Both the position numbers and the translations under genes were made by a program. DNA of 49,465 bases, from NCBI GenBank assembly GCA_945787715.1, contig CALZJE010000061.1, forward strand, positions 1 to 49,465, given 5' to 3'. Position 1 is the stretch's first letter, and the number at the start of each line of letters is the position of its first letter. Below the pieces are notes generated by a model that made no database searches, was not told the origin of the DNA, and was given only the letters and a program-made list of their open reading frames with translations. Below are positions 26,814-34,979 of the stretch, piece after piece. The stretch comes from an uncultured Ectothiorhodospiraceae bacterium (lineage in GTDB: Bacteria; Pseudomonadota; Gammaproteobacteria; S012-40).

Positions 26814-26849
26814 TCTAGAAAGATCAGTTAGACGTGAAGATAGAGTGCA
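26814..26849. repeat. possible solo end of the soxY-soxZ MITE-like element
   Basis: TCTAGAAAGATCAGTTAGAC and the next 16 bases match the left end of the element at 33576 in roughly 28 of 36 positions (one gap), including ATAGAG. No matching right end or duplication is seen. It lies just after the ETHE1-type gene stop. Confidence 0.35.
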
Positions 26850-26860
26850 CTAGGCGGCGA

Positions 26861-32629: not shown

Positions 32630-32720
32630 TTGTACTAACTGCACTTTTTCATGTAGGCACAACTATCACAAGATGAAACTAAAAGCCCCACAAAGACCCA
32701 TACAATCCAGGGAATTTTTT

Positions 32721-33089
32721 ATGCAGCGGCTAACTCGCATATTATCACTAACCAGCATGTTGGCAATCTTGACAAGCAGTTTAATGCTACCTACCACTGC
32801 TAATGCTGATGAAAAAGATATGATTGCAGATGGAAAAGCCATTGCATTTCACCGCCACAAAGGAAACTGTCTTGCTTGTCATGCCATCCAAGGAGGACTG
32901 CTACCTGGCAATATTGGGCCACCACTAGTCAGCATGCAAGATCGCTATCAGACCAAAAGACAATTAAGAGAACAAATATGGGATGCCTCCGTCAACAATC
33001 CCCATACAATTATGCCTCCATTCGGCAAATACAAAATATTAACAGACGATGAGATTGATAAAGTCGTCGAATTCATATACACGCTTTAA
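32721..33089 (+). CDS. soxX: SoxX, monoheme cytochrome subunit of SoxXA
   Basis: The ATG at 32721 with CCAGGGA upstream gives 122 residues. A further ATG at 32673 would put 16 residues before the signal. The signal peptide is LSLTSMLAILTSSLML...ANA. The heme motif CLACH is at 50-54 and the Met ligand at M98 in NNPHTIMPPFG. The GNIGPPLVSM stretch is typical of SoxX. With SoxA it attaches thiosulfate to the carrier SoxYZ in the periplasm. It is followed 26 bp later by soxY. Confidence 0.95.
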   Translation: MQRLTRILSLTSMLAILTSSLMLPTTANADEKDMIADGKAIAFHRHKGNCLACHAIQGGLLPGNIGPPLVSMQDRYQTKRQLREQIWDASVNNPHTIMPPFGKYKILTDDEIDKVVEFIYTL

Positions 33090-33115: not shown

Positions 33116-33574
33116 GTGAGCATAAAGCGCCGAATTATATTAAAGGGAACACTTGTCGGTGGAGCCTCCGTTGCCAGTGGATTATTGAGCTCTCGTATTG
33201 CTCTTGCCGCTTGGCCAGAGAATACATTCAACAAAACCAATTTGAATGACGCAATGGACTCACTAGGCGTCACCAATTTATCGATTTCAAAAGATATCAC
33301 CATCAATGCACCCGACATGGCAGAGCATGGAGCGCTGGTTCCTGTTTCAATAATAAGTAGCATTCCCGGTATTGATAAAATCAGCATCTTAGTCGAAAAA
33401 AATCCTCAGCCGCTCGTCGCCATATTTGAGCTAAGCAATAAATGTCGAGGTTACGTTTCTACAAGAATAAAAATGAAAAGCGAATCAAATATTATCGCCA
33501 TCGTTGAGGCTGGAGGGAGATATTACTCAAACAAAAAAGTCGTGAATGTTGCCATCGGTGGATGCGACGAATAA
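33116..33574 (+). CDS. soxY: SoxY, thiosulfate carrier subunit, with variant C-terminus GGCDE
   Basis: It starts with GTG and AGGAGAG lies 9 bp upstream. The 152-residue protein has a Tat signal (SIKRRIILKGTLVGGASVASG) and the SoxY beta-sandwich. It ends in VAIGGCDE. The carrier Cys is in place, but the usual last residues Gly-Gly are Asp-Glu. The flexible GGCGG arm normally lets the Cys reach the partner enzymes, so the change may matter. A MITE-like element starts one base after the stop, with the TAAA shared by its target duplication, so the stop itself is ancestral. Confidence 0.94.
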   Translation: MSIKRRIILKGTLVGGASVASGLLSSRIALAAWPENTFNKTNLNDAMDSLGVTNLSISKDITINAPDMAEHGALVPVSIISSIPGIDKISILVEKNPQPLVAIFELSNKCRGYVSTRIKMKSESNIIAIVEAGGRYYSNKKVVNVAIGGCDE

Positions 33575-33575
33575 A

Positions 33576-33787
33576 CCTAGAAGAAAGCAGTTGGACGTGG
33601 AAATAGAGCGTAGGATATTGTTTTGAATAGCGTACGACTGCATGGATGCAGGAGCTAGAGCAACGCATGGAGCAATTGCCGAATGAAAAAAGTTGTCTTC
33701 ACCTGGTTGGTGAAGCTAGCTTTTTTCATATAGCTAGGCGAAACAAGAGGCTGCGTTGTATTCCATGGATCAACTGCTTTTTCTAGG
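33576..33787. mobile_element. 212-bp MITE-like element between soxY and soxZ
   Basis: Terminal inverted repeats: CCTAGAAGAAAGCAGTTG at 33576-33593 and its near-complement CAACTGCTTTTTCTAGG at 33771-33787, differing by one inserted base. Both ends are flanked by ATAAA (33571-33575 and 33788-33792), a perfect 5-bp target duplication. No ORF is inside. The interior contains a strong hairpin (33685-33727) and a GCATGGATGCAGGAGC segment. Removing the element restores a 30-nt gap between the soxY stop and the soxZ start. It is non-autonomous; no matching transposase is in the window. Confidence 0.85.
33685..33727 (+). terminator. hairpin with T-run inside the soxY-soxZ element
   Basis: GAAAAAAG...CTTCACC pairs with GGTGAAG...CTTTTTTC across a 5-nt loop, with one small internal mismatch. 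The 3' side ends in a T run. It looks like an attenuator or a partial terminator and would lower soxZA transcript relative to soxXY. Confidence 0.55.
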
Positions 33788-33815
33788 ATAAACTATCAAT
33801 TTGGAGTGAACAAGG

Positions 33816-34118
33816 TTGGCTGAAAACACCATCAAAATCAGAGTAAAAAAAGTAGACGATGTAACACACGTAAAAACACTGATCAAACACGAAATGACAT
33901 CTACTATACACAGTAAAACTAACTCCCCGCATTTTATCCAGGAAGTCAGTTGCGAACATAATGGGTTCACCGTTTTTAAAGCGAATTGGGGAAGTTCAAT
34001 ATCAAAAAATCCCTACTTATCGTTCAAATTTGAGGGTGGAAATCCAGGGGAAAGTATTACCATTAACTGGATTGACAACACAGGTGATACCGACAGTCTA
34101 ACAACGACTATTGGATAA
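33816..34118 (+). CDS. soxZ: SoxZ, partner of SoxY
   Basis: This 100-residue protein starts with TTG; GGAGTG lies upstream at a good distance. MAENTIKIRVKK matches the SoxZ N-terminus, and the small immunoglobulin-like sandwich continues to NWIDNTGDTDS near the end. There is no signal peptide, because SoxZ is exported with SoxY through Tat. It is followed 3 bp later by soxA. The gap from soxY is 241 bp instead of a few bases because of the inserted element. Confidence 0.93.
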   Translation: MAENTIKIRVKKVDDVTHVKTLIKHEMTSTIHSKTNSPHFIQEVSCEHNGFTVFKANWGSSISKNPYLSFKFEGGNPGESITINWIDNTGDTDSLTTTIG

Positions 34119-34121
34119 ACA

Positions 34122-34979
34122 ATGAAGCCACCAAGCAAAAAAATATTTTTCAAGTATTGCTGCCAAGCAACGCTTATTATTTTCACCGGTCTACTTAGCC
34201 TAAACCTGCACGCAGACCCAGCAAGCGACAAAGAAAAATTCCAAAACTTTTTTTCTAAAAAATTTTCCGGTATCGATTTTAATGAATTTTCAAATGGTGT
34301 TTACGCTATCGACCCCGAGTCCCGTGCGCAATGGAAAAATATCGAAGAATTTCCACCTTATGTATTTGCCATCGACGAAGGGGAGAAGCTTTTCAAAACA
34401 CTCTTTATTACAGGCCGAACATATGCTGACTGCCTCCCTGAAGGGGGAATTGGCATAGCACATAGCTACCCGCGATTTAACATCAGAAAAAACCAAGTTG
34501 TTACTCTGGCGCAAGAAATCAACACCTGTCGCCAATTAAACCGAGAAGAGCCATTACCCTGGGGGAGGGGTGATTTAGCGTTGATACTTGCCTATCTGGC
34601 ATTCACATCTCGAGATAAAGAGATTTCCATAACCATCCCAAGTTCAGCAGCCGAAGCCGCATATAACAAAGGTAAAAAACTCTATTATTCTCGTACCGGC
34701 CAACTTAATATCGCATGTGCACATTGTCATGTTGATAATGCGGGTAAACGGATTCGAGCAGATATATTAAGCCCGGCACTTGGTCAAACCAGTCATTTCC
34801 CCGTCTACCGTGCGCGCTGGGGTGAAATGGGTACTTTACATCGACGCTTTGCCGAGTGTAGTGAATTGAGCAGAGCTAAAGCATTCCCTCTACAAAGTGA
34901 AGCGTACCGAAACCTGGAATATTTTCTCAGTTATATGAGCAATGGGATCAAAGCAAATGGGCCTGGAGCTCGAAAATAA
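34122..34979 (+). CDS. soxA: SoxA, monoheme-type cytochrome subunit of SoxXA
   Basis: This 285-residue protein has a signal peptide (ATLIIFTGLLSLNLHA). The single heme motif CAHCH is at 199-203, and the active-site and heme-ligand Cys246 is in RRFAEC. Cys104 and Cys136 are in place for the disulfide found where the N-terminal heme domain has lost its CxxCH, so this is a one-heme SoxA. With SoxX it conjugates thiosulfate to SoxY. It starts 3 bp after soxZ. soxB and soxCD are not nearby. Confidence 0.95.
   Translation: MKPPSKKIFFKYCCQATLIIFTGLLSLNLHADPASDKEKFQNFFSKKFSGIDFNEFSNGVYAIDPESRAQWKNIEEFPPYVFAIDEGEKLFKTLFITGRTYADCLPEGGIGIAHSYPRFNIRKNQVVTLAQEINTCRQLNREEPLPWGRGDLALILAYLAFTSRDKEISITIPSSAAEAAYNKGKKLYYSRTGQLNIACAHCHVDNAGKRIRADILSPALGQTSHFPVYRARWGEMGTLHRRFAECSELSRAKAFPLQSEAYRNLEYFLSYMSNGIKANGPGARK

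Follow-up and report, generated by a model that had tools for sequence, protein, structure and literature searches.

The genes soxY and soxZ of an uncultured Ectothiorhodospiraceae bacterium, known from a 4.40 Mb draft assembly of 227 contigs (GCA_945787715.1), are separated by a 212-bp insertion in a stretch of 49,465 nucleotides (nt) of contig CALZJE010000061.1, which is referred to here, at its full length, as the window. Both gene identities had been proposed in an earlier sequence-only reading and are backed by Pfam matches. The stop codon TAA of soxY (33572-33574) lies inside the left copy of an ATAAA duplication, and soxZ is found 241 nt beyond this stop, a distance that falls to 24 nt once the inserted element and one ATAAA are discounted. 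The sequence-only reading had described the insertion as a non-autonomous transposon of the type known as miniature inverted-repeat transposable element (MITE), and direct reading of the letters bears out the coordinates given for the element and for its ATAAA duplications. The element begins with CCTAGAAGAAAGCAGTTG at 33576 and finishes with CAACTGCTTTTTCTAGG at 33787, the terminal repeats, which had been called near-perfect, agree at almost every one of 17-18 positions with one base gapped, and, as had been stated, the element encloses no open reading frame (ORF; none of at least 80 amino acids in 33576-33787). The description as one MITE insertion holds only in part: the MITE is present, but the insertion very probably consists of two nested mobile repeats, a MITE at the soxY stop and a 48-nt short-repeat unit within it, with 48 of the 212 bp belonging to this second and far more widespread element.

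Table 1. Features of the soxY-soxZ insertion in window coordinates (a slash marks an insertion point).
Feature	Position	Strand	Basis and remarks
soxY	33116..33574	+	Pfam PF13501, 4e-29; 3' end is the insertion point
Left target-site duplication ATAAA	33571..33575		Direct reading; overlaps the soxY stop codon
MITE	33576..33787	+	212 bp with the nested unit, 164 bp without; direct reading, BLAST, alignment, duplications
Left terminal repeat CCTAGAAGAAAGCAGTTG	33576..33593	+	Family consensus CCTAGAAAAA[GT]CAGTTGGAC
Nested 48-nt unit CGACTGCATGGATGCAGGAGCTAGAGCAACGCATGGAGCAATTGCCGA	33635..33682	+	At GCGTA/ATG of the MITE; covariance-model match of 73.5 bits
Unit hairpin 1, CTGC-ATGGAT-GCAG (loop ANGGAN)	33638..33651	+	Covariation in the unit family
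Unit hairpin 2, GCAACGC-ATGGA-GC-A-ATTGC	33660..33679	+	Covariation and direct reading
Central MITE hairpin (A-run, T-run)	33683..33729		Terminator-like on both strands
Right terminal repeat	33771..33787	-	Minus strand reads CCTAGAAAAAGCAGTTG, then ATCC
Right target-site duplication ATAAA	33788..33792		Direct reading
soxZ	33816..34118	+	Pfam PF08770, 1e-26; start codon TTG

The sequence-only reading had suggested looking for further genomic copies, for a matching transposase and for relatives without the element. Comparison of the window element with its own genome by BLAST returned 64 pieces at about 40 loci, and a pattern of the terminal repeats (at most 3 mismatches) matched the genome 70 times, compared with 2 matches for the reversed control pattern; this is a MITE family far beyond chance. 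Perfect 5-bp duplications border 13 of the 27 two-ended elements, as against 6.6% of shuffled end pairs, and when a match at 4 or more of the 5 positions is accepted the values are 21 of 27 and 30%. The family ranges from 55 to 349 bp, within the size usual for MITEs (below about 400 bp, no transposase ORF), and its alignment reveals a conserved body with optional parts. An optional 27-nt right-arm segment (GCGTTACGCCC...AAGGAAGT.CCCTTGGGGTATA), not present in the window copy, occurs at L010, L028, L051, L058 and L061 and is possibly another small nested unit, and the copies at L020, L022 and L051, of about 110-136 bp, are devoid of the entire central hairpin. All 29 copies examined for their placement are intergenic, 22 of them in gaps between tandem genes; coding regions were assigned here, and for the 48-nt unit, by a simple longest-ORF rule and not by gene prediction. 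MITE ends or very short copies occupy several gaps of a cluster reading as tig-clpP-clpX-lon (L384, contig C48 of genome G000), and a 64-bp copy lies between genes reading as truB and pnp (L387). In the window itself, a second, solitary left end (TCTAGAAAGATCAGTTAGACGTGAAGATAGAGTGC) is found at 26814-26858 with no recognisable right end nearby.

In 55 related genomes the MITE ends are practically absent, with single matches in three, and the soxY-soxZ gaps of relatives, which mostly measure 25-58 nt, hold no MITE sequence. Judging from these comparisons, the insertion is young and lineage-specific, because the ends are practically confined to one genome and the relatives' gaps are mostly short. 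The sequence-only reading had pointed out that conservation of the same 212 bp in distant relatives would indicate an old regulatory element; the sequence is missing from their gaps. Its claim of a non-autonomous transposon is thus backed by copies, ends, duplications and short element-free gaps. The 106-nt soxY-soxZ gap of a relative belonging to the same family (L080 in G003) contains what is left of a different repeat (AAGAATCTGTCCGAGAATGG..., 86% to L119), and as this repeat is a different one, the gap was hit independently in G003.

The 48-nt unit is missing from the MITE copies nearest to that of the window, L002 (93.3% identity over the MITE body) and L003 (92.6%). Removal of the 48 nt from the window MITE leaves GAATAGCGTA/ATGAAAAAAG, which matches L002 at 96% across the junction. 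Several other diverged copies hold the unit at the same MITE site, each of them being nearest to unit-free copies, and at L260 and L263 the unit occupies a second MITE site in the opposite orientation. The simplest reading of these alignments would be that MITE copies gained the unit recurrently.

The unit family has the consensus CGACTGCAnGGAtGCAGGAGGTAGAGCAAyGCAnGGAGCArTTGCCGA, whose two hairpins can be written CTGC[AnGGAt]GCAG and GCAAC-GC[AnGGA]GC-A-GTTGC. Across the family, 97.4% of cells are paired and double changes occur at 8 of the 11 pairs, whereas slid controls reach at most 60.5% paired; in the window copy the fifth pair of hairpin 2 is broken (C-A). Among 59 distinct copies, which had not been picked via the scan pattern, A9, TAG (model columns 23-25, before hairpin 2) and CGA (columns 47-49) are invariant, GGA is conserved at 97-98% in loop 1 and at 95-97% in loop 2, and variation at unpaired positions is greatest at the N of the two loops (entropy 1.25 and 1.48). 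The length is 48 nt in 152 and 47 nt in 29 of 184 copies, as obtained with a pattern scan that is biased toward 48. Methylobacter loci such as L229, L248 and L180 contain other repeats of like style (CGACYGCCAnGGATGGCGG...AATCGGTAGGGAACCGATGCGAC) with AnGGA loops, which suggests a wider superfamily of AnGGA-loop repeats.

An A precedes the unit in 162 of the 184 copies and a G follows it in 145, a site that is written A/G here. Joined flanks match unit-free DNA for dozens of copies (some of the 124 matches listed are partial or are self-matches in tandems), examples of unit-free sites being CACCACGAA/GACACGAAG, GGGCTA/GGGTGAGGG and TTTTCCGCA/GTAGGTTCTC. A 1-bp target duplication was considered as well and is ruled out by the T/G sites at L132 and L143. 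Targets comprise many unrelated repeats, palindromic ones among them, and the unit itself, as illustrated by head-to-tail tandems with a period of 48 (L195, L160, L173, L284) and by nested copies (L206, L207). Inverted repeats flanking the unit are enriched (12.5% versus 3.8% at a score of at least 8); a rule of insertion into palindromes only was dropped because most copies do not lie within a strong palindrome.

The unit is also found inside genes. Among 171 copies with enough flank, 45 lie within read-through ORFs of at least 150 amino acids (28 in sense, 17 in antisense orientation), although some of these ORFs are doubtful and may not be genes. The leucyl-tRNA synthetase (LeuRS) of Methylobacter tundripaludum SV96 (L186), a clear case, when aligned to a solved LeuRS shows a single insert of exactly 16 residues, approximately DDCMDAGGRAMQGAIA, at the unit, and further unit-bearing genes, read from their translated context, appear to encode a DEAH helicase (L184), HypF (L200), a squalene-hopene cyclase (L136) and MurB (L223). 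By our own reading only one of the unit's six frames is closed, by a TAG, and it is the openness of the other five, together with the length of 48 nt, that allows the unit to be tolerated in genes as a 16-residue insert. At L177 and L217 the unit is in frame within ORFs reading as Y1 transposases of the type associated with repetitive extragenic palindromic (REP) sequences (RAYTs).

In the source genome 35 covariance-model matches to the unit were detected, including copies outside the MITE (L027, L055, L056, L063, L066), and at about 90% identity the unit extends to other families and orders. Carriers make up 58 of 274 genomes sampled in the class and 37 of 398 in the phylum, 19 of the latter being from other classes; many of the carrying genomes are metagenome-assembled. 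They include Methylobacter, Methylovulum, Methylomonas, Sedimenticola, Thiohalomonas, Endozoicomonas, Lysobacteraceae and Arenicellales. The unit is also present on five Pseudoalteromonas chromid-size replicons, and none was found in phage records. A genome of the phylum sample from outside the class (G284) has at least 15 identical copies, many of them at contig ends, and is a candidate for recent unit activity. Searches of Rfam at permissive thresholds (E of at most 1 for the window and at most 5 for nine loci, 8 or 9 of which bear the unit) gave no relevant match. Open PubMed Central papers, searched by text, likewise yielded none for unit strings, unit peptides or MITE ends. By these searches of Rfam and open papers, the unit family, its breadth, its exact length and its A/G site appear to be undescribed.

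The events at soxYZ can probably be reconstructed as follows. A 164-bp MITE, a long palindrome, landed at the soxY stop codon with a 5-bp A/T-rich duplication, an insertion that is directly observed; its movement was presumably driven in trans by a DDE transposase that is no longer visible here. The 48-nt unit would have entered the MITE at an A/A position, the equivalent of its usual A/G site. Because insertion of the unit is precise, free of target duplications and of one orientation at the site, and because both hairpins lie on one strand, a single-strand, HUH/Y1-like transposition in trans is suggested. Several findings weigh against this account. Of 20 regions retrieved round further MITE ends of the draft assembly, most of them between housekeeping genes, nine had their long ORFs inspected visually, and no transposase that could be the autonomous partner was recognised. 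The independent gains of the unit rest on a weakly supported tree, and repeated precise loss or gene conversion in MITE copies would give the same pattern. The terminator score of the central hairpin barely exceeds that of shuffled sequences, and at the 59 loci of a Y1 search in 15 unit-bearing genomes a unit was found within a stretch of about 1.5-3.5 kb in only 4 cases.

This last count also bears on a different origin of the unit, namely that it is a REP of the GTAG type, with GGTAG before hairpin 2, mobilised by a RAYT and arranged as a fixed direct dimer. The unit has a GTAG head followed by a hairpin (GGTAGAG in the consensus, GCTAGAG in the window copy), its TAG is invariant, REPs are, like the unit, reported to nest inside palindromes and to occur in genes (PMC3733652), and Y1 transposases are present in 14 of the 15 genomes searched. 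RAYT genes, however, have been described as always bracketed by two inverted REPs (PMC2817692), and an inverted flanking pair of units was seen at none of the 59 Y1_Tnp loci; the two RAYT-like genes at L177 and L217 carry the unit inside their own ORF. With units near only 4 of 59 loci, a RAYT partner is not supported and a GTAG-type REP is considered unlikely, although the unit may work like a REP. A function in RNA has even less in its favour. The transcribed unit could form a paired CsrA/RsmA site that would recruit or titrate CsrA, as both loops hold ANGGA, the published CsrA motif (PMC9788540), with A9 invariant, GGA highly conserved and N free, and as CsrA is encoded in 39 of 42 unit-bearing genomes. 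CsrA is, however, widespread in the class, and its presence therefore says little; no csrA was seen in three unit-bearing genomes, two of which are incomplete. Moreover, the stems are almost as conserved as the loops, and in tandem gaps 33 units lie on the same strand as the genes and 29 on the opposite one, a lack of orientation bias that argues against a selected function in RNA, so that this explanation appears improbable.

An equally doubtful possibility, judged from sequence, is that the MITE serves as a regulatory device that would lower soxZ relative to soxY by attenuation at its T-run hairpin. The hairpin that the sequence-only reading had noticed exists, with an A-run on one flank and a T-run on the other and a terminator-like score on both strands (the bidirectional terminator-like hairpin spans 33697-33715 and is followed by the T-run), and its pairing is retained in 85% of cells over the MITE copies, with some double changes. 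The element as a whole folds strongly from end to end, at -89.7 kcal/mol, with z = -8.7 relative to dinucleotide-shuffled sequences. Terminator-like sites, however, number 2 in 1.3 kb where 1.3 are expected, and the score is therefore weak taken alone. Many unrelated tandem gaps hold the same MITE hairpin, the insertion appears recent and lineage-specific, and strong attenuation would be costly because SoxZ needs SoxY. Under the preferred account of two nested mobile repeats, the composite, which separates soxZ from soxY by 212 strongly folded nt and holds the unit in sense orientation, would form a strong RNA structure, and this may cause partial termination or protection of the transcript. 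The start of soxZ and a possible ribosome-binding site lie outside the MITE, and the composite is most likely near-neutral; partial attenuation is possible, and a change in the SoxY:SoxZ balance, as raised in the sequence-only reading, is conjectural. The gene pair is flanked by genes for a cytochrome c (32673-33089) and a SoxA/TsdA-type cytochrome (34122-34979).

Compared with known elements, the MITE resembles ERIC, NEMIS/Correia and the QMITE of Coxiella in its terminal inverted repeats, short target duplications, lack of an ORF and dozens of copies, as well as in its end-to-end fold, intergenic sites, size variants and internal insertions. It differs from them by its 5-bp A/T-rich duplications, by its near-restriction to 1 of 56 genomes and in that no cognate transposase was recognised among the end-bearing regions read. 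The unit shares with REP and REPIN sequences and their RAYTs a short hairpin structure in many copies, a location in palindromes and sometimes in genes, and a TAG preceding a hairpin, whereas its direct-order hairpin pair at fixed spacing, its exact 48 nt, its A/G site and its head-to-tail tandems of period 48 without RAYT association set it apart. The TwoAYGGAY RNA motif of Rfam, which from its name we take to consist of two hairpins with AYGGAY-like loops, is similar in this respect, but no Rfam covariance match for the unit was obtained in the window or the nine loci. Rickettsia palindromic elements (RPEs) share the in-frame, tolerated insertion into unrelated housekeeping genes, a likeness in described behaviour; RPEs are about 150 bp in size (PMC10969869), whereas the unit has 48 nt, is spread through numerous genera of at least two classes and is also common in intergenic repeats. 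The general behaviour of the unit is thus not new, since REPs are known in palindromes and genes (PMC3733652) and RPEs in frame (PMC10969869).

The MITE itself is ordinary, and it is the nested unit that matters. We read the unit as a new short-repeat family inside an ordinary MITE, with REP- and RPE-like behaviour but failing the test of RAYT association. More tentatively, and with the odds somewhat against it, the unit may rank among the smallest precise mobile elements, one that is site-specific (A/G), leaves no duplication, crosses genera and classes, preys on repeats, MITEs among them, and on itself, enters essential genes in frame and, with its two CsrA-type loops, may rewire transcripts. 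Certain hypothetical peptide stretches (DDCMDAGGRATHGAVAE, TTAWMQEVEQRMEQLP) and parts of many gammaproteobacterial 'intergenic palindromes' correspond to the 48-nt unit, which places 16-residue inserts in housekeeping proteins. Its identity of about 90% is kept across numerous genera and in at least two classes, and its unit-free sites can be defined precisely, which opens the mobility of hairpin elements that encode no protein to direct testing.
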